Below are positions 19,208 through 41,707 of a stretch of DNA of 64,000 bases, in pieces (positions within the stretch are counted from its first letter, which is position 1; every line of letters begins with the position of its first letter). The notes under the pieces were generated by a model that was not told the origin of the DNA, ran no database searches, and worked only from the letters and a program-made list of their open reading frames with translations. The stretch spans positions 62,001 to 126,000 of the forward strand of contig CALUPO010000004.1 of the NCBI GenBank assembly GCA_944322675.1. Reading direction: 5' to 3'. This DNA comes from Candidatus Gastranaerophilales bacterium. GTDB lineage: Bacteria > Cyanobacteriota > Vampirovibrionia > Gastranaerophilales > Gastranaerophilaceae. Both the position numbers and the translations under genes were made by a program.

Positions 19208-20164
19208 ATGCAACAAATAAATTTAAGTAATTCTCACACAAACAAATATTCTTTTAAACAAAAAGAAACTCAAGCCAATCAAAGAAAGGAAAATATAAAA
19301 AATTTAATTATTCCTCCTTTGTTATCTTTGGGGTTTGGTCTTTCCAATGAATTTTTTATTAATGTTTTATCTCAATTTTATAATGAATCTATTTTAAAAA
19401 AAATGGGAAAAATAAACAATTCACTTACAAATTCTCAAATACAAAAATTTGAAAAGGATTTTAACGACGTTTTTACAAAATTGAAACTTAAAGATTATGG
19501 TGTTTCCATTTTTAGATTTAATAACTTAGAAAGTGATGCTAAAAGATTAAAGGAATATATTGCAAAAAATATAAATTCCAAAAACCAATCCATCATTAAT
19601 CGTTGTTATTATACCATTATGTATCAAATGACTAAAGGAAATTCTTGTTATGCTTTTTTTGATAAGACTATTTATACTTCAAAAAATAGCCGCCTTTCTT
19701 TATTTCACGAGATGGGGCATGCTTTAAATGATAATAAATCTTACATTCCTAAATTTTTGCAAAAATATAGGAACTTATACAATTACATCGCATCACCATG
19801 TGCCATTTTTGCAATAGCTCTTTCTTCACCACAAAATGTTAAAAATAATAAACAAAATAACCATAATAATGAAAACAATAATTCAAATATATTATCTAAA
19901 CTAAAAAATTCTTTTGTAAAGTTTTCGCCTCTTATTTTATTTTTATCTTTTATGCCGGAAGTGCTTGAAGAAGGAATTGCAAGTTTAAAAGGACAAAAAT
20001 TTGCAAAAAATGTTCTTGATAAAGACATTTTTAAAAAGGTCAAACGTTCAAATCTTTTAGGTTTTTCAACTTATCTTCTTCGTGCCATTATATTTTCTCT
20101 TTCACTTTGGATTACTTTAAAATTGAAAAATATGTTACAGGATAAATTACTTAATAAAACTTAA
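19208..20164 (+). CDS. Putative membrane zinc metallopeptidase (HExxH)
   Basis: A 318-residue protein of unknown family. SLFHEMGHALN at about residue 168 contains an HExxH zinc-binding motif, and PEVLEEGIASLKG at about 250 could supply the third ligand Glu as in gluzincins. Hydrophobic segments lie near residues 35-55, 195-205, 235-250 and 285-305, so it is probably membrane-associated. The N-terminus has a short QINLSNSHTNKYSF tag of the kind seen in other proteins of this genome. Function as a peptidase is inferred from the motif only. It is the last gene before the prophage-like region. Confidence 0.5.
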   Translation: MQQINLSNSHTNKYSFKQKETQANQRKENIKNLIIPPLLSLGFGLSNEFFINVLSQFYNESILKKMGKINNSLTNSQIQKFEKDFNDVFTKLKLKDYGVSIFRFNNLESDAKRLKEYIAKNINSKNQSIINRCYYTIMYQMTKGNSCYAFFDKTIYTSKNSRLSLFHEMGHALNDNKSYIPKFLQKYRNLYNYIASPCAIFAIALSSPQNVKNNKQNNHNNENNNSNILSKLKNSFVKFSPLILFLSFMPEVLEEGIASLKGQKFAKNVLDKDIFKKVKRSNLLGFSTYLLRAIIFSLSLWITLKLKNMLQDKLLNKT

Positions 20165-24172: not shown

Positions 24173-26086
24173 ATGAATCAAATATCAGATATAAATGGCG
24201 ATAAGATTTTAATTAAAGGTTATGTAAGAGCCGACGGCACGGAAGTGTCTTCACATTGGCGTCGTTTGCCGGGCAAAGCTTTATTAACTATATTTAATAG
24301 AGATAAAAGTCAAGATTCAAACGATTTTGCCGGTAATGCAAATTCTAACCCGTATTTTCAAATGGATGATAAAGGCTTTTTAGAAAAGCTAAGAGAAACT
24401 ATTGAAAATATGCCCGAAAGTGAAGCTCGTAATAATCTTTTAAACACTATTAATAAACTTGAAGGTTTTGGAATAATGCAAGATGGTCAAATCAATAATG
24501 GTGCAGCAAGGTTAGAAGAACTTAAACAAAAAGTTACTGAAATAATCAATTATTTACCTGAAGGTAAAATAAAAAATGCACTATCTGTTACCAATGCTGT
24601 TGCACAAGATCTTTTAAATTGGGATGGTATATGGAAACAATTGCCAGAAAATCCGGATGAAAAGGCAAAGGAAACTTTAAAAAGAGAAATGGAATTTGTT
24701 GTAAAAAATGTTGGTCAGATGATTAATAAAGATTTTCTTGAGGTTGATTGGGGTCATCTGGTTCAGACACTTGGTATTGGAGAAGCATTAAATACTGTGA
24801 ATCCGATTTTAAATCAAGTTGCAACAATTGCTGCTGATGTAACACCAAAAGTAATAAATATAGTCAAGGCTGCAAAAGGTAAGGATAAGGATTTGCTTAA
24901 AATAATGAAAAATGCACTCGGGCTTTTGCCAGCTGTTGGTTCGGTGTTTGGACAAATAGGCTCAAAAGTTGGTGAGAAAATATTGGAAAATCCAAAACTT
25001 GCTGAGCTTTATAGTGATTTAAAAGGTATTGACACTGTTTCCAAGCGTTTTGACGCATATATTAAAAACGATATGCCCGAAGGTTCTATTAAAGAACTTA
25101 ATCGCCTTGTTGACTTAAGTGATGGGCTTCAAAACAAAGCCTATCAACTTGAAGGTTCGGTTGAGGATTCAAATGAGTTAAAAAGTTTTCGTCAAAAACT
25201 GTTCCAATTGACTCAAATGACAGGAGCGGCTGCACCTTTGACATTAAACGGCGGGGTGGATAATTATGAACAAATGCTACTAGATTTAGTAAAATTAGAT
25301 AACTTGCCATCACCTGAAGTTAAGTATAATGAGCTAAGAGATATTAACAATTATGATGAACTTATGCAGCAACAAGACCTGATACTTCTTAAAAATCTAT
25401 ACCCCGATATCATGAGTCAGGTTGATGTTAGTCAATTGCCAACGACTATTAATAATTACAATCCATTGGATTTTGTGAATGATTTTAAGGATGAAGCAAT
25501 AAAAAATGCTATCAAAAACTTTAATTATAATTTGCATAAATTTAATTATGATAAAAATAAGAATCGTCCTGAAGCACGACTTTTGATGGATTTATCCATC
25601 GATAAATTCAAAACAGCAAAAGACAATAGTCAATTTATTGTTCTTCAACCCGAAAACAATGCAAAAATTATGCAGCAATACAATTTGAATACACCGGGGC
25701 TTGCGATAGATCCAAAATGGCATGGGATTGCATTTGCAAATGATAGTGATATGAGTAGAAAATTATCAACATCGCCACAATTGCAAAAACAAGTTAGGTC
25801 TAGTTTTAATTCTAATCGAAATGTATTTAAAACCGATAAAATAGGAATAGAATTGAATCAGGACAAGAACTTGCATTTTTCAATCGGGCATGGAACAATA
25901 TTGAACCCCTATATAGATAATCAGGGTTATTTTAATGGCGTTCTTTATGATATCTATGATTTTAATTGGACTTGGAATTTGAAGAACTTAGACTTATTTA
26001 GAGTAAATAATAGTGCTTATTTTCTTCAATTAGTAAATGGTTTAGATAAATATTATATCTTTGTACCTATCAGATTTAAATTATAA
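24173..26086 (+). CDS. Full-length polymorphic toxin with colicin M-like C-terminus (array 1, cassette 0)
   Basis: A 637-residue protein. Residues 1-40 hold a YVRADGTEVSSHWRR motif, also present as RSDGTxVKGHYRS in array-2 tails. Residues about 55-335 are helical and of unknown function, probably delivery or packaging. From Ser338 (SFRQKLFQ) the sequence recurs in every downstream orphan cassette. About residues 440-637 form the toxin: RLLMDLSIDKFKTAKDN, an N-Q-D-K-N-LHFSIGHGT block, then D593-I-Y595-D596-F-N. Colicin M has its catalytic Asp226-x-Tyr228-Asp229-F-N in the same setting (G...NGV..D.YDFN). The last 40 residues differ from all other cassettes. The ATG at 24173 is chosen for its AAAGGAG site. 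Lipid II hydrolysis is inferred; colicin M His235 has no clear equivalent. Confidence 0.6.
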   Translation: MNQISDINGDKILIKGYVRADGTEVSSHWRRLPGKALLTIFNRDKSQDSNDFAGNANSNPYFQMDDKGFLEKLRETIENMPESEARNNLLNTINKLEGFGIMQDGQINNGAARLEELKQKVTEIINYLPEGKIKNALSVTNAVAQDLLNWDGIWKQLPENPDEKAKETLKREMEFVVKNVGQMINKDFLEVDWGHLVQTLGIGEALNTVNPILNQVATIAADVTPKVINIVKAAKGKDKDLLKIMKNALGLLPAVGSVFGQIGSKVGEKILENPKLAELYSDLKGIDTVSKRFDAYIKNDMPEGSIKELNRLVDLSDGLQNKAYQLEGSVEDSNELKSFRQKLFQLTQMTGAAAPLTLNGGVDNYEQMLLDLVKLDNLPSPEVKYNELRDINNYDELMQQQDLILLKNLYPDIMSQVDVSQLPTTINNYNPLDFVNDFKDEAIKNAIKNFNYNLHKFNYDKNKNRPEARLLMDLSIDKFKTAKDNSQFIVLQPENNAKIMQQYNLNTPGLAIDPKWHGIAFANDSDMSRKLSTSPQLQKQVRSSFNSNRNVFKTDKIGIELNQDKNLHFSIGHGTILNPYIDNQGYFNGVLYDIYDFNWTWNLKNLDLFRVNNSAYFLQLVNGLDKYYIFVPIRFKL

Positions 26087-26093
26087 TTATGAG

Positions 26094-26128
26094 TAACAAG
26101 ATGAAGTTTAATAACTTCATCTTGTTTT
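26094..26128 (+). terminator. Hairpin between toxin 0 and its immunity gene
   Basis: AACAAGATGAAGTT and AACTTCATCTTGTT form a perfect 14-bp stem with a TAAT loop, followed by a T-rich run. It lies immediately after the toxin stop and before the immunity start, so the two genes are probably transcribed separately. Confidence 0.65.
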
Positions 26129-26157
26129 ATATTAATTATTATGATATTATTAACAAA

Positions 26158-26790
26158 ATGAAAAGAATTAGTAAAAATGTTCTGGACATAATTTTAGTAA
26201 TTTTTATTAATATATTTATTGCTGATTTAAATTTTGCACTTTTATTATTTTTATTTTTGATGTTTATATATGATATATTTTTAACTTCAAATTTTGGTAT
26301 AAATGTTAATGAAACTACAAAATATTATTTTCCTTTATATATGTTGGGATACGTTGGATTTATAATCAAATATTTTAGTTTACCTCTATTATATAATTTT
26401 ATTGAAAAAAAAAGTACTAACTATATAATAAAGAAGCTGATTTATAAGTTAAAATATACTTTTTTTTCAAAATTATTTATATTGTTTATATCTATATGTC
26501 CATATATAATATTCAATTATTATAGTAGAAATTCGTTAAAAAAAGAAATGTGGTCTAACTTTTTCTTTTTCTGCATAGTTTTTGGTCTCTTCGGCAGTTA
26601 TTTATTTCTGTTTCTTTGGTGGGAGGTTGAGAAATGGTGGAAGAATGATTGTGACAAATGGTATGGTTCTAAAAGAATTAAAAATACAAAAATATATATA
26701 AAAATAAATAAAATTTTTAATAAAATTATATCTTCAATTTGCAAATTTCTAGAAAAAATTAAAAAAGTGCTAGATAAAAAGGTATTTTGA
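26158..26790 (+). CDS. Membrane immunity-like protein of cassette 0
   Basis: About 210 residues with four hydrophobic segments. The N-terminal KRISKNVLDIILVIFINIFIAD aligns with the starts of the other array-1 immunity proteins (pattern ...NxFxAD), the middle is unique, and the C-terminal LFGSYLFLFLWWEVEKWW...WYGSKRI...KKVF block is shared almost unchanged by five array-1 genes. Multi-pass membrane immunity proteins are known for M-type pyocins, which fits a toxin acting on lipid II. The ATG at 26158 is chosen by alignment; an open frame from 26089 runs through the terminator hairpin. The stop TGA overlaps the TTG of the next cassette. Confidence 0.6.
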   Translation: MKRISKNVLDIILVIFINIFIADLNFALLLFLFLMFIYDIFLTSNFGINVNETTKYYFPLYMLGYVGFIIKYFSLPLLYNFIEKKSTNYIIKKLIYKLKYTFFSKLFILFISICPYIIFNYYSRNSLKKEMWSNFFFFCIVFGLFGSYLFLFLWWEVEKWWKNDCDKWYGSKRIKNTKIYIKINKIFNKIISSICKFLEKIKKVLDKKVF

Positions 26791-27737
26791 GTTTTCGTCA
26801 AAAACTGTTCCAACCGACTCAAATGACAACAGCGGCTGCACCTTTGACATTAAACGGCGGAGTGGATAATTATGAACAAATGCTATTAGATTTAGTAAAA
26901 TTAGATAACTTGCCACCACCTGAAGTTAAGTATAATGAGCTAAGAGATATTAACAATTATGATGAACTTATGCAGCAACAAGACATGATACTTCTTAAAA
27001 ATCTATACCCTGATATCATGAGTCAAGTTGATGTTAGTCAATTGCCAACGACTATTAATAATTACAATCCATTGGATGTTGTAAATGATTTTAAGGATGA
27101 TATTAATAAAAACATAAACAATTACCTAAAAGATTATAAAAATACAAATTTAAACGAAAAATTGCAAGGTATTGTTTACGAAAATATTCTTCATCCTTTC
27201 TTGCCAATGGCAGCTAATAGTACAAGAAATGGTATGCATAATTTGAATGAAGCTAAAATAGATACTAATGCTAAAATTTATGAAAATTTAAATGATGTTG
27301 AAGATAAAAAAGTAGTTGATTTTTTGCAAAATACTGTTAAAGTTCCTAAAAATGTTAAAGGAATAAATTACAATGCAAAATCATATGTTTCCCAAAACCT
27401 TGGAAATTCACCTGAAATTAGCAAATTTATAATTGACAACTTTGAAGCATTGGAAAATAATAAAATAACTCAGGCTCCTGTTGAGTGGCGGTATAATTCA
27501 TCTGACAAAAGCAATAGTTTAGACAGATTTTTTGCATTTCAACATGCTACAATAATGAATCCAAAAATCGATTCTAATGGTGTATTTACTGCTAAAATCA
27601 TTGATTACACTGATTTTGAATATCGAAATGGAAAATCTGTAACTAATATTCCAAATAATTGGGGTTATAATATGCAACAAAAAGGAAATTATAAAAATTA
27701 TTTTAATGTAATTGAAATTGAAAGGAAATTAAGATGA
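26787..27737 (+). CDS. Orphan toxin cassette 1, type B
   Basis: A 316-residue frame starting at TTG inside TTTTGAG, overlapping the preceding stop by 4 bp, with AAAAAGG five bases upstream. It begins exactly at the SFRQKLFQ junction, so it lacks the N-terminal 337 residues of the full-length protein. After the shared linker (GGVDNY, ELMQQQD, NPLDVVNDFKD) it carries a different toxin domain, type B, ending in FQHATIMNPKIDSNG and DYTDF where type A has D-x-Y-D-F. It is nearly identical to the type B cassette at 32216. It may be a silent donor for gene conversion or a separately translated toxin. Confidence 0.6.
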   Translation: MSFRQKLFQPTQMTTAAAPLTLNGGVDNYEQMLLDLVKLDNLPPPEVKYNELRDINNYDELMQQQDMILLKNLYPDIMSQVDVSQLPTTINNYNPLDVVNDFKDDINKNINNYLKDYKNTNLNEKLQGIVYENILHPFLPMAANSTRNGMHNLNEAKIDTNAKIYENLNDVEDKKVVDFLQNTVKVPKNVKGINYNAKSYVSQNLGNSPEISKFIIDNFEALENNKITQAPVEWRYNSSDKSNSLDRFFAFQHATIMNPKIDSNGVFTAKIIDYTDFEYRNGKSVTNIPNNWGYNMQQKGNYKNYFNVIEIERKLR

Positions 27738-28222
27738 ATCTGTTTAATAATCAAGATATTCGTAATTTATTGTTAATAATATTTACTTATATGGTGATTG
27801 CTAATTTGCCAATAATTCTTATGATAATTCTTACAATAATTTATCTAATCGAAATAGGTAATGGACCACATACATCAGGATTTATGCTTGTTATCGGAAT
27901 TCCATATATGATATCTTTTATAGTAAAACCAGTCATTTTGCCAGTATTAAGTATTTTTATTTGTAGAAATATTCAAAATGTTTATATTAAAAAGTTTTGT
28001 ACAACATTTAAAATGTCGTTTACTATATTTATTATTTTTTCTTTTATAGATATAATATTATTTCTAATATTAAATTATTTTGATTTTTTTCTAGCAGATA
28101 TTCTTTTGTATACAAGCTTACTATCAATTACAAGTTCCTATTTGCCTTTTTATATTGTTTCATTATTTTGTGCATTAAAATATAAATTTTTTAATAACAA
28201 AATAAATAGACAAAACCGATAA
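27734..28222 (+). CDS. Immunity-like membrane protein for toxin B (copy 1)
   Basis: A 162-residue protein with four hydrophobic segments, overlapping the toxin B stop by ATGA, so it is translationally coupled. The first 20 residues (NLFNNQDIRNLLLIIFTYM) are the same as in the other type B immunity protein at 33076, and so is the end (PFYIVS.FCALKYKFFNN), but the middle is strongly different although the toxins are the same. It lacks the WWEVEKWW tail of type A and C immunity proteins. Function is inferred from position and topology. Confidence 0.55.
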   Translation: MNLFNNQDIRNLLLIIFTYMVIANLPIILMIILTIIYLIEIGNGPHTSGFMLVIGIPYMISFIVKPVILPVLSIFICRNIQNVYIKKFCTTFKMSFTIFIIFSFIDIILFLILNYFDFFLADILLYTSLLSITSSYLPFYIVSLFCALKYKFFNNKINRQNR

Positions 28223-28484
28223 AATAGGAATAGAATTGAATCAGGACAAGAACTTGCATTTTTCAATCGGTCATGGAACAATATTGAACCCCTATATAGA
28301 TAAGCAAGGCTATTTTAACGGTGTTTTGTATGATATTTATGATTTTGAGCTTTTACCATATTATTATAAAAATGATTATTATAATTATAGATTAACATTA
28401 GCTAATAATGGAGCTTATGCTCTTCAAAATAGGAAAATGATAGATAAGTACTATTTATTAGTCCCAATAAAATTTAAATTATAA
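28215..28484 (+). pseudogene. 3' fragment of a type A toxin (colicin M-like tail)
   Basis: The frame enters in the middle of the type A toxin at TDKIGIELNQDKN and keeps NLHFSIGHGT, D-I-Y-D-F and a unique tail ending in VPIKFKL. The upstream part has been replaced by the type B cassette; the junction lies in a shared AAAACCGATAAAATAGG stretch at the end of the type B immunity gene. It has no ribosome site of its own. Confidence 0.65.
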
Positions 28485-28556: not shown

Positions 28557-29179
28557 ATGATATTTATAAAAGACACATTAAGTTTTATATTCCAAGTTTT
28601 GCTTATCATATTTGTTAACTTATTTGTTGCGGATATAACTATATCATATATATATGTTTCATTTATTGCTATTTTAACTAGATATGATACAGTTAGTATA
28701 TTAGGTCTAGATGTAAAATGTGTAGATATTTACATTATTTTACTTATGGTTATAACTATTTTAAAATACATCTCTTTACCAATTTTATACAATATTTTAT
28801 ATAAAATTAGCAAAAATAAAATAATTTTAGGTTTTATACAACTTTTAAAAACAAATTTATTGTTCAAAATATTTATTTTATTTTTAGCATTAGCACCAGG
28901 ATTTTTATTAATTCTAATATATAATCCTGAGATAGATCTTGTTTTATACTTATATATATATATATATATATGGGTCTCTTTGGCAGTTATTTATTTCTGT
29001 TTCTTTGGTGGGAGGTTGAGAAATGGTGGAAGAATGATTGTGACAAATGGTATGGTTCTAAAAGAATTAAAAATACAAAAATATATATAAAAATAAATAA
29101 AATTTTTAATAAAATTATATCTTCAATTTGCAAATTTCTAGAAAAAATTAAAAAAGTGCTAGATAAAAAGGTATTTTGA
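28557..29179 (+). pseudogene. Type A immunity gene, frameshifted at a (TA)10 tract
   Basis: The N-terminal frame (ATG 28557, IFIKDTLSFIFQVLLIIFVNLFVAD) is open as far as the (TA)10 run at 28951-28970. Beyond it, the conserved LFGSYLFLFLWWEVEKWW...KKVF tail continues in a different frame up to TGA at 29177-29179. In the related gene at 33915 the same place has a shorter TA-rich tract and the tail is in frame. Read as it stands, the protein ends in unrelated residues at 29090. Because TA tracts slip easily, the gene may be phase-variable rather than dead. Confidence 0.65.
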
Positions 29180-29967
29180 GTTTTCGTCAAAAACTGTTCC
29201 AACCGACTCAAATGACAACAGCGGCTGCACCTTTGACATTAAACGGCGGGGTGGATAATTATGAACAAATGCTATTAGATTTAGTAAAATTAGATAACTT
29301 GCCACCACCTGAATTTAAGTATAATGAGCCAGAAGATATTTTTTATAGAGAACATCCTAATTTAGCTAAATGGACAGTTAATGCAGGGATGTTTATTGAA
29401 AATTTAAAGTCTCCTGAAAATATTGAAGATGCAAAATCAATGTGGCAGATTGCTTCTTCAAAATTTGATAACAAAGTTATAAATAATTATATGTCTCAAA
29501 ATGGTTCTGTTATTAATAGTATTAATGAAATAAAAGTACCGGAACTTAAACAAGTTGTTCAAAATAAAGTTTTTGAACAAATGGGCATGAAAGATTCAAA
29601 AGGGCTTATCTATCATAATGATAGTAATTTGTCTAAGGAAATAGCAAATTCTAAAGAATTTACAAAATTTATAGCTCATAATAAAGATTATTTGCAAAAA
29701 GGTGGAGTGATTAAAAAAGATTCACTTAAACTTGATTCAACAAATAATTTACATTTATCCTTAAATAATGTTGATATACTTGGGACGCATGTTGATAAAA
29801 ATGGAGATTTAGTCTCGATATGTTTTGATACTTATGATTTTAATAAAAATGACCCAAAACAATTAGTTCGTATTGCATATGCGGCACAATATGGTAAAGT
29901 TATTGAAAATTTTTATAATCTAATAATTATCAAAATTCCTAAAAATCAATGGGAAAAATACAACTAG
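29176..29967 (+). CDS. Orphan toxin cassette 2, type C
   Basis: A 263-residue frame, TTG start overlapping the preceding TGA, again beginning at SFRQKLFQ. The linker is shared up to KYNEP, then a third toxin type follows: HPNLAKWTVNAGMF..., SNLSKEIANSKEFTKFI and a C-terminal NLHLSLNNVDILG...DKNGDLVSICFDTYDFN. The D-T-Y-D-F-N motif is a direct match to the colicin M D-x-Y-D-F-N pattern, and an Arg follows 10 residues later (QLVR). The end IIIKIPKNQW differs from types A and B. It is probably a donor or secondary toxin. Confidence 0.6.
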   Translation: MSFRQKLFQPTQMTTAAAPLTLNGGVDNYEQMLLDLVKLDNLPPPEFKYNEPEDIFYREHPNLAKWTVNAGMFIENLKSPENIEDAKSMWQIASSKFDNKVINNYMSQNGSVINSINEIKVPELKQVVQNKVFEQMGMKDSKGLIYHNDSNLSKEIANSKEFTKFIAHNKDYLQKGGVIKKDSLKLDSTNNLHLSLNNVDILGTHVDKNGDLVSICFDTYDFNKNDPKQLVRIAYAAQYGKVIENFYNLIIIKIPKNQWEKYN

Positions 29968-30014: not shown

Positions 30015-30734
30015 ATGAAAAAAATAAATCTCAAAAGATTTTTAATTAACTATTTTAGTATGATTTTAGTAAATTTTTTGTTTGCAGATAGTAATATTAT
30101 AATACTATTAGTAGGAACTTTTTTTTCACTTGTGTTTCCTTTTGTTGCCAATTTACATAAATTTTTAGAGAAATGTCATCATGACTTTAATATTATATAT
30201 GACGAGATTATTTTTACGCATGTTGGAAACTTTTTAATTATACTTATTATTTTAACATTATTACTAAAATTATTAGTTTTACCAATATTTTATAATATGT
30301 TAGAAACAAGAAGTAAAAATGTTAAAATTGTTAAATTTATTAAAAATTTAAAAACTAAATTTAGAATGAAACTTTTGATTTTATTTGTTTCAATAATTCC
30401 GTTTTTAATATTTAATATGTTAACTAAACCTAATGATATATTGTTTAGTTTTTTAGTTCTTTGTATAATATCCGGGCTTTTTGGCAGCTATCTTTTTCTG
30501 TTTTTCTGGTGGGAAGTTGAAAAATGGTGGAAGAATGATTGTGACAAATGGTATGGTTCTAAAAGAATTAAAAACACAAAAATATATTTAGAAATTAATA
30601 AAATATTTAATAAAATTCAAGATTTTAATTATCAAAATTTTCAAAAATGTCAAAAAATTGTTTTTGTTATTTTAACTCCAATTTGCAAATTTCTAGAAAA
30701 AATTAAAAAAGTGCTAGGTAAAAAGGTATTTTGA
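30015..30734 (+). CDS. Type C immunity-like membrane protein
   Basis: A 239-residue protein with four hydrophobic segments. It starts KKINLKRFLINYFSMILVNFLFAD, has the middle LLKLLVLPIFYNMLETRSKNVKIVKFIK and the shared LFGSYLFLFFWWEVEKWW...KKVF tail, with an extra insert (FNYQNFQKCQKIVFVIL) also found in the gene at 34561. It lies directly after toxin C and its stop overlaps the next cassette. The immunity role is inferred. Confidence 0.6.
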   Translation: MKKINLKRFLINYFSMILVNFLFADSNIIILLVGTFFSLVFPFVANLHKFLEKCHHDFNIIYDEIIFTHVGNFLIILIILTLLLKLLVLPIFYNMLETRSKNVKIVKFIKNLKTKFRMKLLILFVSIIPFLIFNMLTKPNDILFSFLVLCIISGLFGSYLFLFFWWEVEKWWKNDCDKWYGSKRIKNTKIYLEINKIFNKIQDFNYQNFQKCQKIVFVILTPICKFLEKIKKVLGKKVF

Positions 30735-31573
30735 GTTTTCGTCAAAAACTCTTCCAACCAACTCAAATGACAGGAGCTGCCGCACCTTTGACATTAAACG
30801 GCGGAGTGGATAATTATGATGAACTTATGCAGCAACAAGACCTGATACTTCTTAAAAATCTATACCCTGATATCATGAGTCAAGTTGATGTTAGTCAATT
30901 GCCAACGACTATTAATAATTACAATCCATTGGATATTGTGAATGATTTGAAGAATGAAGCTTGGCAAAAATTTGCACAACTAAGTTCTTTTGGGTTAAAG
31001 GGTGCAAATAATTATTTAAATAGAAAACGCCCTGAAACACGACTTTTGATGGATTTATCCATCGATAAATTCAAAACAGCAAAAGACAATAGTCAATTTA
31101 TTGTTCTTCAACCTGAAAACAATGCAAAAATTATGCAGCAATACAATTTGAACAGTCCAGGTTTGGCGATTGACCCAAAATGGCATGGTGTTGCATTTGC
31201 AAACGATAGTGATATGAGTAAAAAATTATCAACATCACCACAATTACAAAAACAAGTTAGGTCATCATTTGATTCTAATCAAAATGTATTTAAAACCGAT
31301 AAAATAGGTATAGAGTTAAATCAGGATAAAAACTTGCATTATTCAATCGGGCATGGAACAATATTGAACCCCTATATAGATAATCAGGGTTATTTTAACG
31401 GCGTTTTATATGATATTTATGATTTTGATTTTTTGCCATATAATAAATCTGATTTGTTAAATTGGATTAATAATAACAAAACAGAATTAACAAATAATAT
31501 TGCTTATTATTTGCAAAATAAAAATAAAATAGACAAATATTATGTACTAGTCCCAATAAAATTTAAATTGTAA
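30731..31573 (+). CDS. Orphan toxin cassette 3, type A
   Basis: A 280-residue frame beginning at SFRQKLFQ with TTG. Compared with cassettes 0 and 1 the linker lacks about 30 codons between two copies of an AATTATGA sequence (GGVDNY is joined directly to DELMQQQ). The toxin is type A (LLMDLSIDKFKTAKDN ... NLHYSIGHGT ... D-I-Y-D-F-D) with its own variable 45-residue tail ending VPIKFKL. The toxin body is nearly the same as in the full-length gene at 24173 while the tail and the following immunity gene differ. Confidence 0.6.
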   Translation: MSFRQKLFQPTQMTGAAAPLTLNGGVDNYDELMQQQDLILLKNLYPDIMSQVDVSQLPTTINNYNPLDIVNDLKNEAWQKFAQLSSFGLKGANNYLNRKRPETRLLMDLSIDKFKTAKDNSQFIVLQPENNAKIMQQYNLNSPGLAIDPKWHGVAFANDSDMSKKLSTSPQLQKQVRSSFDSNQNVFKTDKIGIELNQDKNLHYSIGHGTILNPYIDNQGYFNGVLYDIYDFDFLPYNKSDLLNWINNNKTELTNNIAYYLQNKNKIDKYYVLVPIKFKL

Positions 31574-31646: not shown

Positions 31647-32219
31647 ATGAGATTTATAAAAGACACATTAAGTTTTATATCCCAAGTTTTGCTAATTATT
31701 TTTGTTAATTTGTTTGTTGCTGATTTAACTTTTTCAATTTTAATAATGACGTTGTATTATTATGTCAATGACAACTGTGATATTTGTGGAATTTTAAGTG
31801 CAATGTTATTTATTTTAAAATTTATCTCTTTACCTATTTTATATAAAGTATTATATAAAAAAAGCAAAAATAAAATAATTTTAGGGTTTATACATTTATT
31901 GAAAACCAATATATTGTTCAAAATATTTATTTTATTTTTAACATTGATACCTGAAAATTTATTGTTTAATAAAAAGTTTAAACTTTTTGAAATTTTATTA
32001 TATATATATGTTAGTCTCTTCGGCAGTTATCTTTTTCTTTTCCTCTGGTGGGAAGTTGAAAAATGGTGGAAGAATGATTGTGACAAATGGTATGGTTCTA
32101 AAAGAATTAAAAATACAAAAATATATTTAGAAATTAATAAAATATTTAATAAAATTATATCTTCAATTTGCAAATTTCTAGAAAAAATTAAAAAAGTGCT
32201 AGATAAAAAGGTATTTTGA
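31647..32219 (+). CDS. Type A immunity-like membrane protein (cassette 3)
   Basis: A 190-residue protein with four hydrophobic segments. It begins RFIKDTLSFISQVLLIIFVN, as in the genes at 28557 and 33915, has a variable first loop (YYVNDNCDICGILS) and ends with the common LFGSYLFLFLWWEVEKWW...KKVF tail. The variable region is matched by the variable tail of the preceding toxin. The TGA overlaps the TTG of cassette 4. Role inferred. Confidence 0.6.
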   Translation: MRFIKDTLSFISQVLLIIFVNLFVADLTFSILIMTLYYYVNDNCDICGILSAMLFILKFISLPILYKVLYKKSKNKIILGFIHLLKTNILFKIFILFLTLIPENLLFNKKFKLFEILLYIYVSLFGSYLFLFLWWEVEKWWKNDCDKWYGSKRIKNTKIYLEINKIFNKIISSICKFLEKIKKVLDKKVF

Positions 32220-33079
32220 GTTTTCGTCAAAAACTGTTCCAACCGACTCAAATGACAACAGCGGCTGCACCTTTGACATTAAACGGCGGAGTGGATAATT
32301 ATGATGAACTTATGCAGCAACAAGACCTGATTCTTCTTAAAAATCTATACCCCGATATCATGAGTCAGGTTGATGTTAGCCAATTGCCAATGACTATTAA
32401 TAATTACAATCCATTGGATGTTGTGAATGATTTTAAGGATGATATTAATAAAAACATAAACAATTATCTAAAAGATTATAAAAATACAAATTTAAACGAA
32501 AAATTGCAAGGTATTGTTTACGAAAATATTTTTCATCCTTTCTTGCCAATGGCAGCTAATAGTACAAGAAATGGTATGCATAATTTGAATGAAGCTAAAA
32601 TAGATACTAATGCTAAAATTTATGAAAATTTAAATGATGTTGAAGATAAAAAAGTAGTTGATTTTTTGCAAAATACTGTTAAAGTTCCTAAAAATGTTAA
32701 AGGAATAAATTACAATGCAAAATCATATGTTTCCCAAAACCTTGGAAATTCACCTGAAATTAGCAAATTTATAATTGACAACTTTGAAGCATTGGAAAAT
32801 AATAAAATAACTCAGGCTCCTGTTGAGTGGCGGTATAATTCATCTGACAAAAGCAATAGTTTAGACAGATTTTTTGCATTTCAACATGCTACAATAATGA
32901 ATCCAAAAATCGATTCTAATGGTGTATTTACTGCTAAAATCATTGATTACACTGATTTTGAATATCGAAATGGAAAATCTGTAACTAATATTCCAAATAA
33001 TTGGGGTTATAATATGCAACAAAAAGGAAATTATAAAAATTATTTTAATGTAATTGAAATTGAAAGGAAATTAAGATGA
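32216..33079 (+). CDS. Orphan toxin cassette 4, type B
   Basis: A 287-residue frame starting at SFRQKLFQ with the shortened linker seen in cassette 3. The type B toxin part reads the same as that of cassette 1 except for one Leu to Phe change (ENIL to ENIF). Such identity next to divergent immunity genes points to recent duplication or gene conversion of the toxin part alone. The stop overlaps the next ATG. Confidence 0.6.
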   Translation: MSFRQKLFQPTQMTTAAAPLTLNGGVDNYDELMQQQDLILLKNLYPDIMSQVDVSQLPMTINNYNPLDVVNDFKDDINKNINNYLKDYKNTNLNEKLQGIVYENIFHPFLPMAANSTRNGMHNLNEAKIDTNAKIYENLNDVEDKKVVDFLQNTVKVPKNVKGINYNAKSYVSQNLGNSPEISKFIIDNFEALENNKITQAPVEWRYNSSDKSNSLDRFFAFQHATIMNPKIDSNGVFTAKIIDYTDFEYRNGKSVTNIPNNWGYNMQQKGNYKNYFNVIEIERKLR

Positions 33080-33576
33080 ATCTATTTAATAATCAAGATA
33101 TTCGTAATTTATTGTTAATAATATTTACTTATATGGCAATTGCTTCTATACCTTTATTATTAACTATCTGTTTAATATTAATTTATATGATTGAAGTAGA
33201 TGGTGAATATCTTAATTCAGGACTTATTCTTGTATTATTTTTACCATGTATAATTGCTTATATTTTTAAGATACTAATTTTACCAATAACAAGTTTTATT
33301 ATATATAAAAAAAGTTTCAATCCTTATGTAAAATATATGTTTCAAACTTTTAAAATACCATTTTTATTATTAATTAGTGTAGTAATTTTAGATACATCTG
33401 TTTGTTTTAGCATGTCTTGTTTAATTAATGCTGATGACTATAAATATATCAAATATTGCATTTATCTACCGCTTTTTTCCTTTTTAAGTTTTTATTTGCC
33501 TTTTTATATTGTTTCATTTTTTTGTGCATTAAAATATAAATTTTTTAATAATAAAATAAATAGACAAAACCGATAA
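33076..33576 (+). CDS. Immunity-like membrane protein for toxin B (copy 2)
   Basis: A 166-residue protein with four hydrophobic segments, translationally coupled to toxin B by an ATGA overlap. The first 20 and last 30 residues match the gene at 27734, the middle does not, although both are paired with practically the same toxin. Role inferred from position and topology. Confidence 0.55.
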   Translation: MNLFNNQDIRNLLLIIFTYMAIASIPLLLTICLILIYMIEVDGEYLNSGLILVLFLPCIIAYIFKILILPITSFIIYKKSFNPYVKYMFQTFKIPFLLLISVVILDTSVCFSMSCLINADDYKYIKYCIYLPLFSFLSFYLPFYIVSFFCALKYKFFNNKINRQNR

Positions 33577-33844
33577 AATAGGTATAGAATTGAATCAGGA
33601 CAAGAACTTGCATTTTTCAATTGGTCATGGAACGATATTAAACCCGTATGTAGACAATCAAGGCTATTTTAATGGTGTTTTATATGATATTTATGATTTT
33701 GATTTAATAGATTTTGATTTTTCTGATTGGGAAAATATTAAAAATAGTAAAACTACCGCAATAAATAATATAGCGTATGGCTTGCAAAAAGCAAACCATA
33801 TAGATAAATACTATGTATTAGTCCCGATAAAATTTAAGTTATAA
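33569..33844 (+). pseudogene. 3' fragment of a type A toxin (cassette 4b)
   Basis: As at 28215, only the end of a type A toxin remains, from TDKIGIELNQDKN through NLHFSIGHGT and D-I-Y-D-F-D to VPIKFKL. The junction with the type B immunity gene is the same as in the earlier copy, so the fused B-A unit was made once and then duplicated. Its variable tail (LIDFDFSDWENIKNSKTT) is again different. Confidence 0.65.
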
Positions 33845-33914: not shown

Positions 33915-34451
33915 ATGAGATTTATAAAAGACACATTAAGTTTTATATTCCAAGTTTTGCTAATTATTTTTGTTAATTTGTTTGTTGCAGGTTTCATATC
34001 ATTTATAATATTAGCATTGTGTATGTATGCCAATGAAGATAGTAACATTTGTCAATATTTAGATTTAGTGTATCCTATTTTAAAGTTCACCTCTTTACCA
34101 ATTTTGTACAATACTTTAAATAAAATTAGCAAAAATAAAATAATTTTAGGATTTATAAATTTATTGAAAACCAATATATTATTTAAAATATTTATTTTAT
34201 TTTTAACATTAATACCAGAATATTTATTTTTTATTTCTAACTCAAAGGCTACCAATATTTTTGCATATGTATATGTATATATATATATTGGTCTCTTCGG
34301 CAGTTATGTATTTCTGTTTCTTTGGTGGGAAGTTGAGAAATGGTGGAGGAGAGAAAAAGATAAAGGAAATAAGTATGTTTGTGCTGTTTGTGAGTGGTGT
34401 GTGAAGGCTCAAAACAATGTTGTAGCTTTGCTGAATAGGAAAGTGTTTTAA
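33915..34451 (+). CDS. Type A immunity-like membrane protein (cassette 4b)
   Basis: A 178-residue protein with four hydrophobic segments, starting RFIKDTLSFIFQVLLIIFVN. The GLFGSYVFLFLWWEVEKWW block is kept, but the remainder is replaced by RREKDKGNKYVCAVCEWCV...NRKVF, which contains CAVC and a further Cys. Only the very end, KVF, matches the usual tail. This looks like a recombinant end. The gene is not followed by a new SFRQ cassette. Confidence 0.55.
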   Translation: MRFIKDTLSFIFQVLLIIFVNLFVAGFISFIILALCMYANEDSNICQYLDLVYPILKFTSLPILYNTLNKISKNKIILGFINLLKTNILFKIFILFLTLIPEYLFFISNSKATNIFAYVYVYIYIGLFGSYVFLFLWWEVEKWWRREKDKGNKYVCAVCEWCVKAQNNVVALLNRKVF

Positions 34452-34560: not shown

Positions 34561-35280
34561 ATGAAAAAAATAAATTCCAAAAAATTTTTAATTAACTATT
34601 TTAATATTATTTTAATAAATTTCTTTTTTGCAGATGTTTGTGTAGTTACATTCATATGGGGAATATTACTTTATTTACTAGATTCCTATCTTGAATTACC
34701 ATATAGTGATAATATGACTGAATACGCAATAAAATATAATAATGAATTAGCAAGTTTTTTTTGGATTTTATTCATTATTATCGCTATAATGTTTTGTTTT
34801 TTGAAATTATTAGTTTTACCAATATTTTATAATATGTTGGAAACAAAAAGTAAAAATGTTAAAATTGTTAAATTTATTAAAAATGTAAAACATAAATGGG
34901 TAATGAAATTATTTGTTTTATTTATATCAATAATGCCTTTTTTATTATGGAAGATATTAAATGATTCTTTATTAAGCAAAGAAATTTGGTATTGCTTTGT
35001 CTTTTTCTGTATAATTTTGGGTCTCTTCGGCAGTTATTTATTTCTGTTTCTTTGGTGGGAGGTTGAAAAATGGTGGAAGAATGATTGTGATAAATGGTAT
35101 GGTTCTAAAAGAATTAAAAATACAAAATTATATTTAGAAATTAATAAAATATTTAATAAAATTCAAGATTTTAATTATCAAAATTTTCAAAAATGTCAAA
35201 AAATTGTTTTTGTTATTTTAACACCAATTTACAAATTTCTGGAAAAAATTAAAAAAGTGCTAGATAAAAAGGTGTTTTAA
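34561..35280 (+). CDS. Type C immunity-like membrane protein (array 1 end)
   Basis: A 239-residue protein with four hydrophobic segments, close to the gene at 30015: KKINSKKFLINYFNIILINFFFAD start, LLVLPIFYNMLETKSKNVKIVKFIK, LFGSYLFLFLWWEVEKWW and the same FNYQNFQKCQKIVFVIL insert. The first extracytoplasmic loop differs (LLDSYLELPYSDNMTEY). It closes array 1: after its TAA no new cassette starts. It has lost its toxin. Confidence 0.6.
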   Translation: MKKINSKKFLINYFNIILINFFFADVCVVTFIWGILLYLLDSYLELPYSDNMTEYAIKYNNELASFFWILFIIIAIMFCFLKLLVLPIFYNMLETKSKNVKIVKFIKNVKHKWVMKLFVLFISIMPFLLWKILNDSLLSKEIWYCFVFFCIILGLFGSYLFLFLWWEVEKWWKNDCDKWYGSKRIKNTKLYLEINKIFNKIQDFNYQNFQKCQKIVFVILTPIYKFLEKIKKVLDKKVF

Positions 35281-35381: not shown

Positions 35382-36014
35382 ATGCAAAATTTAAAAACTA
35401 CACAAGAGTCAGTTATCGACAATATGAAAAAAATTCAGGCGCTTGTAAACGCCGGGAAAATTGACACCAAAGTCGGAACAGCTTTATTAAATCAGATGCT
35501 TATTGATTCATTAAACAAAAATTCGCAAAATGGTGCCAATTTTCCATCTAATTTAAATCAAAATCAAGGATTTTTGCCGCAAAGTAACACGCCAAATGCA
35601 CAGATACCATTGGGTATTACTGATGCTTTAAAACAATTCGAAATGAATAATACTGATTTTTTCAAAAAACCTTCACGTCAATCACTAAGAGAATATTTGG
35701 AAAAAAACATCGATGAAATGACTCCTCAACAAATTGAAGCTATTTCAAAACTTGTTACAACTCTTGAATCAGGGGCTGTTAATGATTATATTAATCAAAT
35801 GAATTATCAAAAACAACTTGAAAATGCCAACAAGGAAGCTATTTCAAAAATGAACACAAATGTTGCAAATGCTGCAAATTCCTCAAGTGGGGGTGTTTTA
35901 AATAAAATATTTACACGTGAAGATGTTAAAAATATGTCAACTGACGAATTTTTAGCGAATGAAGCTCAAATTATGGCACAATTACGTGAAGAAATGAAAA
36001 ATAGAAAAAAATAA
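35382..36014 (+). CDS. Scaffold-like phage protein carrying the TRE/DEYL C-terminal module
   Basis: A 210-residue, helical, Asn/Gln-rich protein directly upstream of the portal gene. No named family is recognised, but position, predicted helices (IDNMKKIQALVNAG..., LREYLEKNIDEMTPQQIEAISKLV) and a basic C-terminus (EEMKNRKK) would suit a scaffolding or internal virion protein. Its C-terminus IFTREDVKNMSTDEFLANE..IMAQLRE is the same module found in one or two copies in all array-2 effectors (for example IYTREMIDKMSVDEYLLHE..IMEQLK). That sharing is the main hint that effectors are directed to phage particles. RBS AAGAAAGAGG precedes the ATG. Confidence 0.55.
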   Translation: MQNLKTTQESVIDNMKKIQALVNAGKIDTKVGTALLNQMLIDSLNKNSQNGANFPSNLNQNQGFLPQSNTPNAQIPLGITDALKQFEMNNTDFFKKPSRQSLREYLEKNIDEMTPQQIEAISKLVTTLESGAVNDYINQMNYQKQLENANKEAISKMNTNVANAANSSSGGVLNKIFTREDVKNMSTDEFLANEAQIMAQLREEMKNRKK

Positions 36015-36379: not shown

Positions 36380-38155
36380 ATGAATGATTTTATAAATGAT
36401 TACAGTCAATTATCAATTCACGAAAATCAAAAACTTGCTTCAAAAGTTGTCTTTTGTTTTGACAAATACGATGAAATGAGACAACGACAACTTATAAATA
36501 TTCGTGAATTAAAAAATGAAATATATTTAAATAAAAACTTTAAAAATACAAATTGGAAAAATAACGTTTCGTTACCTGATATTTACGAACTTGCACAAAC
36601 TTTAAAATCACATTTAATTGAAAATTTATATTCCAATCCTGAAAATATGTTTGATGTTATTGGTATAAATCCTCAAGCCCAAAGTCTTGCAAATTCTCAC
36701 AAGGCTATGCTTGTTAATATGTTTGACAGGATGAATTTAAAAAATGAAATGGAAAAACTTGTTGATAGCATTGTTGAATCAGGTGAAGCAACTTTGTTTG
36801 TAGGATGGAATACAAAATATAAGAAAAAAAGAAGACCACAAACTCTGGAAGAACAATTTTTGAATCCCACAAATGACGGATTTGTTGTTGAAGACGTTGT
36901 AACTTATGACGGACCTTCCGTTAAGTGTATTGACCCTGTGGATTTTGTTTTTGATATTGCAAATATTCAAAATTTTGAGTCCTGTGCTAAAATTTATCGA
37001 ACTTATATGGATGTTAACGAAATTATTGATAATAAAAGCAATAATATGTTAAATCCTCAAATAATTGATGAACTTAGACAAATAGCAAATGTTAAATCAC
37101 TTAAAACCCTTGGCAACTTATCTTCTTTAAAAATTGTTGATGGAGGATATTCCAACATTTACGATTCAGATTTAATGAAAGCACGTGCACGTAAAGGAAA
37201 TAAACTTGAAGTGCTTGAATTTTATGGTGATATTCAAAAACCTGATGGAACTATTTTAAAGAATTATCTTGTCACAGTTGTTGCACGAACAAAGGTTGTT
37301 AGATTTGAACCTAATCCTTTTGTTATAAATCCTTTTATTTATGCCTCAATTATTGAAGATCCAGAAACTAAACGCGGGGTTTCACCTTTAAAGGTAGCTA
37401 TGATTTTATCTTCAATATCATCTGAAATTTTAAATAAACAACTTGATGCTTTGTCTTTGACAATCAATCCTCCATATCTTGCTCCTAAAGGATGTTTTAA
37501 GGGTGAGCAAGTTGTTACACCGGGGAAAATAATTGAATATGATTCAGCTTTAATGCCTCAACAGCCATTACCGCTTGATTTTACACAGGCTGTTAGAGGA
37601 TGGGATTTTATCCGATTTTTTAAAGCTCAAATTGAATCCGCTACCGGTATTTTTAAGAATATGTCAGGTCAATTGGAGCAGGATGTTGAGAAAACAGCAA
37701 CTGAATTTACTTATTCTGTATCTTCACAGGCTATTAGGTTAAACATGCTCATTGACTCTATTTCAAGAAAAATTATTATACCTATGATTCAGGCTGTTGC
37801 TGAAATTACTTCAAACTTTAAATTTGGCAATGAAACTGTTGTTTATAGTGAAAATGGTGCTGTTAAATTTATCGATATTAATGATAATGTGCGTTGTTCT
37901 TATGATTTTCTTTATCGTTATGGCGATAGAAAAGCAAGCATTGATAGAAAATCCAAATTTTCACAGCTATTTAACCTTATTTCATCTTTTGCTAAAATAC
38001 CTGATTTCACTTCTAAAATCAATTGGGATAAGTGTTTTAAATATGCTCTTGAACAGTTTGGTGTTGAAAACACTCAAGCATTTATCAATGAAAATGTTCC
38101 TGCTAATAATACAACCTTGCCTTCAAATCAGATTACAAATGGCTCAAAGCAATAG
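36380..38155 (+). CDS. Phage portal protein (podovirus type)
   Basis: A 591-residue portal protein of the podovirus head-to-tail connector type, which forms the dodecameric DNA channel at one capsid vertex. Visible blocks are VSLPDIYELAQTLKSHL, VESGEATLFVGW, a central IEDPETKRGVSPLKVA with LDALSLTINPPYLA, and ATGIFKNMSGQLEQDVEKTATEF, the helical region lining the channel. The length is in the usual 500-700 range. It is followed by a strong terminator and then by array 2, which separates it from the capsid gene. Confidence 0.82.
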   Translation: MNDFINDYSQLSIHENQKLASKVVFCFDKYDEMRQRQLINIRELKNEIYLNKNFKNTNWKNNVSLPDIYELAQTLKSHLIENLYSNPENMFDVIGINPQAQSLANSHKAMLVNMFDRMNLKNEMEKLVDSIVESGEATLFVGWNTKYKKKRRPQTLEEQFLNPTNDGFVVEDVVTYDGPSVKCIDPVDFVFDIANIQNFESCAKIYRTYMDVNEIIDNKSNNMLNPQIIDELRQIANVKSLKTLGNLSSLKIVDGGYSNIYDSDLMKARARKGNKLEVLEFYGDIQKPDGTILKNYLVTVVARTKVVRFEPNPFVINPFIYASIIEDPETKRGVSPLKVAMILSSISSEILNKQLDALSLTINPPYLAPKGCFKGEQVVTPGKIIEYDSALMPQQPLPLDFTQAVRGWDFIRFFKAQIESATGIFKNMSGQLEQDVEKTATEFTYSVSSQAIRLNMLIDSISRKIIIPMIQAVAEITSNFKFGNETVVYSENGAVKFIDINDNVRCSYDFLYRYGDRKASIDRKSKFSQLFNLISSFAKIPDFTSKINWDKCFKYALEQFGVENTQAFINENVPANNTTLPSNQITNGSKQ

Positions 38156-38205: not shown

Positions 38206-38586
38206 TCATTTTATAAATAATGAATTAAAAAGCACATAAAATATTGTTATAGTGAATATCGACAAATATAAAAGCATTATTGAAAATCCAATAATAAAAA
38301 AAATATTATAGATTTTATTTTCCAAAATGAACTTATTTTTTATTTTTAAGCCGAATGTGTATTCTATTGTCCATACTATTATTGCAAATGCTATTAAAAG
38401 AATAGTTATAAAAATAGTTAATATTGTACAAAAAGCTATAACATTGCCTTCATTAACTCTAATAAGTTTTTTAATTAAACTTATAAAAAAATAAATTAAA
38501 AATAAACCTATGTATGATAATAAGTTATTGCAAAATGATAATTTAGATTTATAAAAAAAACAAGAAAGGAATTTATACATATGCAA
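38206..38586 (-). CDS. Array 2 membrane immunity-like protein 1
   Basis: About 126 residues with three to four hydrophobic segments. The motif LKIKNKFILENKIYNIFFIIG is shared, with changes, by the array-2 genes at 40263 and 41835 (NLKIKNRFLLNNKILNF; FIISNKIYNIFFIIG). It is divergent from a truncated effector start at 38581 and overlaps it, so its true start may be shorter than drawn. An immunity role against a membrane-acting effector is inferred from pairing. Confidence 0.5.
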   Translation of the reverse strand: MHMYKFLSCFFYKSKLSFCNNLLSYIGLFLIYFFISLIKKLIRVNEGNVIAFCTILTIFITILLIAFAIIVWTIEYTFGLKIKNKFILENKIYNIFFIIGFSIMLLYLSIFTITIFYVLFNSLFIK

Positions 38587-38679
38587 AATAATAAACTAAA
38601 CAATAAGCTAATTCAACTTTCAGGATACATATATAAAAGCGTTAATAATAAAAAACCTAAAGATTGGCTTTTAAGTTAA
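38581..38679 (+). pseudogene. Truncated array 2 effector start
   Basis: AAGAAAGGA then ATG opens a 32-codon frame (QNNKLNNKLIQLSGYIYKS) that matches the start of the lipase effector at 40639 (QNYKLHNDLKQLSEYIYKS) and stops at TAA after KPKDWLLS. It is followed by a piece of immunity-like sequence (38680-38760) and, at 38784, another bare effector start (ATGCAAAAAAGC) that stops after 12 codons. Confidence 0.6.
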
Positions 38680-38864
38680 ATATTTTTTAATTACAAATAC
38701 AATAAATGGCTTACAAAAAATAAATAAAACCACAAAGTATACATTATGTGATTATAATACATCAAAAGAAAGGAATGTAAATTATGCAAAAAAGCTTTAG
38801 GGCAATTATTTTCATTTTAGGTTTTATTATTTTATAAATAACAGAGTATTATAACTAACACTAC

Positions 38865-39260
38865 TTATTTATTTATATAAAATGACATTATAATAAATGC
38901 TATTATAAAATAGTATATTGGTAAAGCCGAGAATATTACACCTAGCCAAAATAAAATATTATTATATTTAGAACATTTAATTTCTTTAAAACCATTAAAA
39001 GGATTGTCTTTTTTTGTAAAATATTCAAATATCGCAAATATAATAAAGAAAATCAATAATAACACACTAATACAATAATAAAAACTAAATATTAAATCTA
39101 AAAAATAATCATCTTCTTGGTAAATATTGTTCAATTTTAGATATATAAAATGGTCAGGCATTACTATAAAATAAAAAATTAAATTAAAAATAATATTTAA
39201 ATATCCAATAAATGATAGTGCTTTAAAAGCAATAAAATTTTTTAAAATATTAAAATTCAT
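38865..39260 (-). CDS. Array 2 membrane immunity-like protein 2
   Basis: A 131-residue protein with three hydrophobic segments (LSFIGYLNIIFNLIFYFIV; FYYCISVLLLIFFIIFAIF; ILFWLGVIFSALPIYYFIIAFI). It diverges from the DUF6973-like effector at 39302 with 41 bp between the two ATGs. TATAAT lies 7 bp before its ATG and no ribosome site is visible, suggesting a leaderless mRNA. The immunity role is inferred from the repeated divergent pairing. Confidence 0.5.
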   Translation of the reverse strand: MNFNILKNFIAFKALSFIGYLNIIFNLIFYFIVMPDHFIYLKLNNIYQEDDYFLDLIFSFYYCISVLLLIFFIIFAIFEYFTKKDNPFNGFKEIKCSKYNNILFWLGVIFSALPIYYFIIAFIIMSFYINK

Positions 39261-39301
39261 AACTTATATTATACAACAAAATTTAGCAGAAAGGACTACT
39301 T

Positions 39302-39925
39302 ATGAGCAATAAAAATTTAAATAAAAAATTTCATGCAGAAATAGATGCAAAAACAAAACAGTATCAAAAAATATATGATTTTGAAATAAGTTCAGATCCA
39401 AAACATCCAACTTGGAATAATGAATCTGACGCATTTAAACATGCTTTTATGCAAGCAATTTTGGCTCAACGATATACAATCCCAATGAGTTTTGTAGCAG
39501 GGTGGTTTCATGAAATTGACGGAACTATTAAAGGACAACCAGTAAGTGAACTTAATATAGACTTGTGGAATAATAAGATTGGAAGAGAAATATTTAATGA
39601 AGTCAAATGGGAATTAATGGGAAAAAAAAGAAAAGATTACCCATCAAAAAGAATAGAAGATATTTATGCTCAAAAAATTGTTGAACGTATGAAAAATGGA
39701 GATTTAATAACTAATCCAAATGACAAGCGGCAGTTTAAAGAATATGATAAATATTTTAAAAATAAAAATAAAGACAAATCCACAGGTGAAGCAGCTCCAG
39801 TTAACAATATTTACACCCGTGAAATGATAGGTAAAATGACAGCTGATGAATATCTGCAACATGAGCCAATGATAATGGAGCAATTAAAAACAGCTTTAAA
39901 ATATTTTATTAATATCTTTTTATAA
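39302..39925 (+). CDS. Array 2 effector, DUF6973-like N-terminal domain; tail disrupted
   Basis: A 207-residue product. Residues about 1-150 contain SDAFKHAFMQAILAQ, GWFHEIDG and IDLWNNKIGREI, the 'DAFrHa ... HE ... D..NN..G' layout of the DUF6973-type domain found in polymorphic toxins. Biochemical activity is not established. Residues about 165-195 are the TRE/DEYL module (IYTREMIGKMTADEYLQHE..IMEQLKT). The original end is cut off by insertion of a long CCTCCGGACGGGG repeat, and the displaced last 22 codons (YVKPYTRSDGTEVKGYYRSVR) remain at 40140-40205. RBS AGAAAGGA precedes the ATG. Confidence 0.55.
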   Translation: MSNKNLNKKFHAEIDAKTKQYQKIYDFEISSDPKHPTWNNESDAFKHAFMQAILAQRYTIPMSFVAGWFHEIDGTIKGQPVSELNIDLWNNKIGREIFNEVKWELMGKKRKDYPSKRIEDIYAQKIVERMKNGDLITNPNDKRQFKEYDKYFKNKNKDKSTGEAAPVNNIYTREMIGKMTADEYLQHEPMIMEQLKTALKYFINIFL

Positions 39926-40111
39926 TGTCCTCCGGACGGGGTTACTTTTTGTGGAAAAAGTAACCAAAACCGCAACCCACTTGTCGCTCGTATTCTCACA
40001 ACGTTCGACCTAAAGCCTGCGTAACTCGCATTGAGCAAAGCCCAATGCTCAAACAAACTTGGCTTTGATGTTGTCTCACGTGTAATAATTACTCGCTCCT
40101 GCGTATGGGTT
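39924..40111 (+). repeat. Long CCTCCGGACGGGG element inserted in the effector tail
   Basis: A diverged copy of the element at 822-1004, from TCCTCCGGACGGGG to GCGTATGGGTT. It splits the end of the effector gene at 39302, which shows that the element can move. No obvious target duplication is visible. Confidence 0.65.
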
Positions 40112-40139
40112 GCATATTATTTGTTAAGTTTATATGATA

Positions 40140-41705: not shown

Positions 41706-41707
41706 GA

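Follow-up and report, generated by a model that had tools for sequence, protein, structure and literature searches.

A polymorphic toxin array with predicted colicin-M-like tips among prophage genes of Candidatus Gastranaerophilales

Colicin M relatives and the toxin locus compared

Colicin M is lethal to bacteria because it destroys a precursor from which the cell wall is built. Five of its residues, Asp226, Tyr228, Asp229, His235 and Arg236, are essential, each alanine mutant keeping less than 2% activity, and how the enzyme cleaves lipid II is still unresolved (PMC8469651). The motif varies among colicin M relatives, burkhocin M1 having DXFKX5R (PMC5821083) and PmnH having HXYDX5FK in a domain that seems inactive (PMC5821083, PMC8469651). 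PmiA, the immunity protein for a Pseudomonas colicin-M bacteriocin, is a four-span integral membrane protein encoded directly downstream on the same strand (PMC5277000). A further colicin M homologue, DUF3289, was recognised by Foldseek and is toxic in the periplasm (PMC11148199). MuF and other temperate-phage polymorphic toxins have their tips and immunity genes inside prophage structural modules (PMC5576092, PMC11699363); we did not find colicin M named in the texts of these two papers.

The window analysed here, a stretch of 64,000 nucleotides, is part of a 2.1 Mb Candidatus Gastranaerophilales genome assembly (G000) and contains a full-length toxin gene followed by an array of toxin tips and putative immunity genes. 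With the colicin M family bacteriocins (PF14859: colicin M, pectocins M1 and M2, syringacin M and PaeM) the tips share the C-terminal position of the domain, the predicted fold, a D-x-Y-D(-F-N) motif followed by a helix and a terminal strand, and membrane-associated immunity. They differ in having no His-Arg after the motif, an extra, nearly invariant Gln619, no match to PF14859, unrelated N-terminal parts and cassette arrays, and their host is Candidatus Gastranaerophilales whereas the colicin M family is found in Proteobacteria. The closest solved fold is the C-terminal domain of BtpeA (PDB 9jdi), a type VI secretion system (T6SS) effector of Bacteroides fragilis. The tip locus lies amid prophage genes, and sequence identity between BtpeA and the tips is about 7-11%. 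No paper on the activity of BtpeA was found in a literature search. The DUF3289/DUF943 T6SS pair of Yersinia is likened to the tips by description, not by sequence: it too combines a colicin M homologue invisible to sequence annotation with membrane-anchored immunity, but the effector is a PAAR protein and the immunity protein has a single span (PMC11148199). Unlike MuF toxins, the window toxin has no MuF domain, as PF04233 (Phage_Mu_F) was not detected in it by the Pfam scan. From the evidence given below, the tips are probably divergent toxins of the colicin M fold which would act in the periplasm by cleaving lipid II or a similar polyprenyl-pyrophosphate, organised in an exchangeable tip/immunity array.

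Organisation, setting and distribution of the toxin array

The locus is flanked by podovirus-like prophage genes, and the toxin array is positioned between the tail gene and the portal gene of this prophage (Table 1). The full-length toxin consists of a unique N-terminal part (residues 1-335), a part common to the cassettes (residues 336-440) and the type A tip (residues ~438-637). The cassette starts match the full-length toxin from residue 336 on with 81-86% amino acid identity; the cassettes have a TTG start without a clear ribosome site, and immunity genes alternate with them. A constant N-terminal part, C-terminal tips that can be exchanged, immunity genes next to them and orphan cassettes mark the locus as a polymorphic toxin system.

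Table 1. Positions of the toxin array, key residues and neighbouring prophage genes within the window
Feature	Position	Strand	Basis or remark
Small terminase	21880		prophage context
Tail protein	22572		prophage context
Full-length polymorphic toxin, 637 aa	24173..26086	+	ORF; GGAG ribosome site before ATG 24173
Type A toxin tip, residues 438-637, predicted colicin-M-like fold	25484..26083	+	AlphaFold2, Foldseek, VIA-align
His573, conserved only in A-like (41/48) and B-like (15/17) tips	25889..25891	+
D593-I-Y595-D596-F-N, counterpart of colicin M D226-K-Y228-D229-F-N	25949..25966	+	conservation, profile alignment
Gln619, no counterpart in colicin M motif	26027..26029	+	conservation
Immunity candidate for tip A1, four hydrophobic segments	26089..26790	+	tip/immunity start pair also together as orphan cassette in sister genome G008
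Type B cassette, motif D-Y-T-D-F at 27603	26787..27737	+	ORF, cassette match
Immunity candidate for type B, four hydrophobic segments	27734..28222	+
Type A orphan tip fragment, DIYDF at 28332	28236..28484	+
Immunity candidate, four hydrophobic segments; frame departs from common 3' end	28557..29090	+
Type C cassette, DTYDFN at 29827, predicted colicin-M-like fold	29176..29967	+	AlphaFold2 pLDDT 95.1, pTM 0.90
Immunity candidate for type C, four hydrophobic segments	30015..30734	+
Second type A cassette, tip 78% identical	30731..31573	+
Immunity candidate, four hydrophobic segments	31647..32219	+
Second type B cassette, DYTDF at 32945	32216..33079	+
Immunity candidate for second type B cassette, four hydrophobic segments	33076..33576	+
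Type A orphan tip fragment, DIYDF at 33686	33590..33844	+
Immunity candidate, three or more hydrophobic segments	33915..34451	+
Last immunity candidate of array, no tip immediately upstream	34561..35280	+
Prophage protein between toxin array and portal gene	35382..36014	+	C-terminus is a ~30-residue motif also in toxin relatives
Portal/connector protein	36380..38155	+	phrog_332, E 9e-36; prophage context
Major head protein	46809		prophage context
Virion/tail protein	49981		prophage context
Large terminase	52058		prophage context

In the sister genome G008 the same N-terminal part was found (83% identical over residues 1-368), but joined to a type B tip; the A1 tip (96% identical) occurs there as a downstream orphan followed by an immunity gene with nearly the same beginning. 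Since the N-terminal part is joined to another tip and the A1 tip is orphaned, the comparison of G000 with G008 is a direct record of tip exchange. We propose that the cassettes of the array are spare tip/immunity pairs; a single full-length toxin would be expressed, and spare cassettes would be acquired by recombination at common flanking sequence. The 3' ends of the immunity genes are almost identical (GLFGSYLFLFxWWEVEKWWKNDCDKWYGSKRIKN...; 26600-26786, 28970-29175, 30540-30730 and 32030-32215). Their front parts differ between copies, and the gene at 28557 runs out of the frame of the common end. Together with the common cassette starts, these common 3' ends look like homology arms for exchange.

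Prophage structural genes were also located near the relatives in G008, G099 and G040; the relatives L116, L117, L120, L122 and L125 are apparently situated amid ordinary chromosomal genes. Just outside the prophage structural genes of the window, a protein encoded at 19208-20164 has an HEMGH stretch (metallopeptidase-like) and hydrophobic segments. The C-like member L123:9850-11028 (minus strand) contains a cysteine-rich HPNCKC stretch similar to the end of the Phage_Mu_F domain. Its match to PF04233 had an E value of 0.002, below the cut-off, and it is the sole relative with a MuF-like N-terminal stretch; this resemblance may link the tip family to the MuF-type phage toxins.

The genome search detected the tip in 56 of 191 genomes of the GTDB family. 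In the profile search it was present in 165 of 382 sampled genomes of the class, every match listed being from that one GTDB family, and in a phylum-wide sample it was present in 85 of 292, the matches listed again being all from the same GTDB family. In the subset retrieved with the type A profile, the hosts were mostly Candidatus Gastranaerophilales metagenome assemblies from animal guts. No Pfam, NCBIfam or PHROGs model matched the tip when the window proteins and 31 tips were scanned; AcetylCoA_hydro and PhoQ_Sensor appeared in these scans only at chance level and were discarded. Profile searches of PDB sequences gave no family match, the designed proteins that came up being chance hits, and the tblastn search of phage records gave no match. 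The IMG/VR scan yielded two loci only, matching 20 residues. Judged from these sequence searches, the tips appear to be a large and diverse family unrecorded in sequence databases.

Conservation, motif register and predicted fold of the tips

The D-I-Y-D-F-N motif of the type A tip occupies residues 593-598, numbered from the ATG at 24173 (nt 25949-25966, plus strand), and the type C motif D-T-Y-D-F-N lies at nt 29827-29844, as the first-pass annotation had read them; D-Y-T-D-F was likewise present in both type B copies (27603 and 32945). The colicin M context to which that annotation had compared them is real: the colicin M sequence used, which is identical to PDB 2xmx, reads D226-K-Y-D-F-N-A-S-T-H-R236 (PMC8469651). 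An alignment of 103 family members was divided by motif into four subgroups, A-like, B-like (DxYDFx[YH]R), C-like (DTYDFN) and other DYYDF. Asp593 was conserved in all 103 members, Tyr595 in 94 and Asp596 in 97, and Gln619 in ~98% of the ungapped rows, nearly invariant across all four subgroups. These four were the most conserved residues of the family, with the same ranking in a separate conservation count, and their conservation in the 103 members indicates that D-x-Y-D is not a chance match. Ser525 was also nearly invariant in the family alignment.

A profile search of the kind proposed in the first-pass annotation gave no colicin M family match: PF14859 matched none of 31 members at E values up to 10 and was over the cut-off in none of 191 relatives. 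BLASTP of the tip family against colicin M did not align the motif. When the tip family was compared with five colicin M family sequences by hhalign, a single 24-column stretch was aligned, comprising a strand and the D-x-Y-D-F-N motif, and Asp593, Tyr595 and Asp596 were placed unaided on colicin M Asp226, Tyr228 and Asp229. The score was 23.1 compared to 11.5 +/- 1.9 (maximum 17.1) for 150 column shuffles, with a reported probability of 5.6%.

The type A tip was modelled by AlphaFold2 from 74 family sequences with pLDDT 94.3 and pTM 0.89. The type C tip, which is ~20% identical to type A and has no His573, was modelled with similar confidence (Table 1); the alignments behind the two models overlap in part, so that the models are not fully independent. 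In an unbiased Foldseek search of 350,542 PDB chains with the type A model, PaeM ranked first (E 3.4e-3, prob 0.80), ranks 1-10 were PaeM, syringacin M, pectocins M1 and M2 and the BtpeA C-terminal domain, and colicin M itself appeared at ranks 12, 15 and 20. With type C, BtpeA and pectocin M2 took ranks 1 and 2 at E ~0.1, weaker than for type A. VIA-align gave for type A Z scores of 6.5 for BtpeA (151 residues), 6.3 for pectocin M2, 5.6 for pectocin M1, 5.2 for PaeM and 4.5 for colicin M, the next unrelated row being a respiratory complex subunit at 2.2. For type C the values were 7.2 for BtpeA (3.1 A over 143 residues) and 5.8 for pectocin M2 (3.6 A over 121), with the next unrelated row at 2.8. 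All 12 rows with Z of at least 3.5 were colicin M family members or BtpeA, and the Z range of the colicin M family over both tip types, 3.5-6.3, was moderate. A fold search of BFVD had as its best match a phage tail protein (E 1.3e-3, rmsd 17.7), which was not used.

Z scores of 6-7 are below 8, and values under 8 may reflect a common arrangement. The order of strand, D-x-Y-D turn, helix and strand could accordingly be such an arrangement, with no origin or function in common with colicin M, a reading to which the missing family match at the sequence level also lends itself. We consider it very improbable, as two divergent models retrieved the same (or nearly the same) twelve best entries, and these were all colicin M family members or BtpeA, unrelated folds scoring much lower; moreover, the invariant residues land on the catalytic motif and the hhalign score exceeded all 150 shuffles. 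Because the same families, and they alone, came out on top of both searches and covered most of the domain, the relationship to colicin M and BtpeA appears to be a true one. The tips are thus predicted to have a divergent colicin-M-like fold, and a confident fold of another kind, which would have spoken against the first-pass annotation, was not seen for either type A or type C.

The end points of the structural alignments agree with the motif register in these models. For type C, residue 198 aligned with pectocin M1 residue 265, which is 43 residues after Asp155 in the tip and 43 after Asp222, the catalytic Asp of pectocin M1 (PMC5187517). For type A, residue 200 aligned with PaeM residue 285/286, 44 after Asp156 in the tip and 44/45 after Asp241, the catalytic Asp of PaeM (PMC8469651).

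The second half of the colicin M motif was not retained. As the first-pass annotation had remarked, His235/Arg236 have no counterpart at matching spacing, and no subgroup has such a pair at +9/+10 in its tail. In the B-like tips a Tyr/His-Arg pair follows the first Asp at +6/+7 (DYYDFxHR or DYYDFxYR), three residues earlier than in colicin M; the 17/17 occurrence of this pair is by construction, the pair having defined the subgroup. It might take over the job of the colicin M His-Arg. In the other subgroups no basic residue was conserved in the His-Arg region. C-like tips have no conserved His573 and have an invariant Asp at 575, where A-like tips have Thr. In the type B tips of the window the Tyr of D-x-Y-D is replaced by Thr. 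Alanine at this position inactivates colicin M, and the type B tips may accordingly have lost their activity or be tuned differently.

The colicin M reading of the first-pass annotation was supported for the predicted fold and the D-x-Y-D register, but not for PF14859 membership or the His-Arg half of the motif, and since neither a PF14859 match nor the His-Arg pair was found, we did not file the tip family under colicin M. With a predicted colicin M fold and no His-Arg, the tips look like a large unrecorded branch of the colicin M toxin type. Such a branch would bring this type into an uncultured lineage of gut bacteria with cyanobacterial relatives, in which the domain is frequent (165/382 class genomes). 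A family that keeps Asp-Tyr-Asp and drops the essential His-Arg offers a direct way to find out which residues are responsible for catalysis.

The tips might instead have inherited an ancestral fold in common with colicin M and BtpeA but catalyse a different reaction on a target in the envelope; this target could, for instance, be a phospholipid, a bond in peptidoglycan or some other lipid-linked pyrophosphate, and Gln619, together with His573 or Asp575, would take the place of His-Arg. The loss of His235/Arg236 next to a nearly invariant Gln619, the invariant Asp575 of C-like tips where A-like tips have Thr, and a BtpeA match at least as close as that of the colicin M bacteriocins would all suit such a change. 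However, the tips retain the other three catalytic residues in the same order along the fold, and the motif also varies in known colicin M relatives such as burkhocin M1 (DXFKX5R, PMC5821083); we judge another activity unlikely.

Immunity candidates, proposed action and delivery

Behind the tips in the window lie genes encoding small proteins, which have three to four hydrophobic segments. Sufficient sequence on the downstream side was available for 96 distinct relatives, of which 79 (82%) had a same-strand gene within 250 nt encoding a protein with at least three hydrophobic segments, compared to 18 of 157 control genes. The four-segment proteins behind the tips, their frequency in the relatives and the PmiA precedent (PMC5277000) fit the membrane proteins of the kind known from M-class immunity that the first-pass annotation had suggested. 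Directly downstream of the C-like members L083, L084, L085, L088 and L089 no immunity-like gene was present on the same strand.

Multi-span immunity candidates are an architecture usually tied to pore formers (PMC5821083), and the tips might on this ground be pore-forming or ionophoric toxins with membrane immunity, as in many CDI and colicin systems. The tips contain no hydrophobic segment, however, the highest 19-residue Kyte-Doolittle mean being 0.57-0.84, and the predicted fold is mixed alpha/beta and matches an enzyme family. We rejected pore formation, which is very unlikely, because of the missing hydrophobic segment.

Under the favoured colicin-M-like reading, the tips would be the catalytic C-terminal domains of antibacterial polymorphic toxins and would act, as colicin M does, at the outer face of the target's cytoplasmic membrane. 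Asp593, Tyr595 and Asp596 would form the metal-binding catalytic core, the substrate would most likely be lipid II or a close polyprenyl-pyrophosphate relative, and its cleavage would halt wall synthesis. Immunity would be conferred by the four-span membrane protein encoded immediately behind each tip. With this candidate activity, the family offers many candidates against a proven antibiotic target.

A motif of ~30 residues, I[FY]TxEDIxxMSxxEFxxNExxI..QL, was present in 31 of 81 toxin relatives of at least 240 residues. The conserved prophage protein at 35382-36014, beside the portal gene, ends in it, as does the DUF6973 protein of a second array, and it recurs in the lipase-like proteins of that array; its site is N-terminal in the toxins read and in the C-terminal part in the lipase-like toxins. 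Our guess from the sequences is that the motif could be a recruitment tag, perhaps for the virion. A more far-reaching and rather doubtful version of the colicin-M-like reading is that the active site was rebuilt without His-Arg (Asp-Tyr-Asp plus Gln619) and that the podovirus-like prophage packages the toxins via the short tag, its particles carrying exchangeable toxins against a cell-wall precursor between gut bacteria.

The second toxin array lies in the same prophage at 38206-46298 and contains the DUF6973 protein (39302) and lipase-like proteins, those at 40639 and 42253 matching Lipase_3/Mbeg1-like and that at 45210 being similar. Its small membrane proteins are candidate immunity genes on the opposite strand, and the three lipase-like proteins have near-identical ends.
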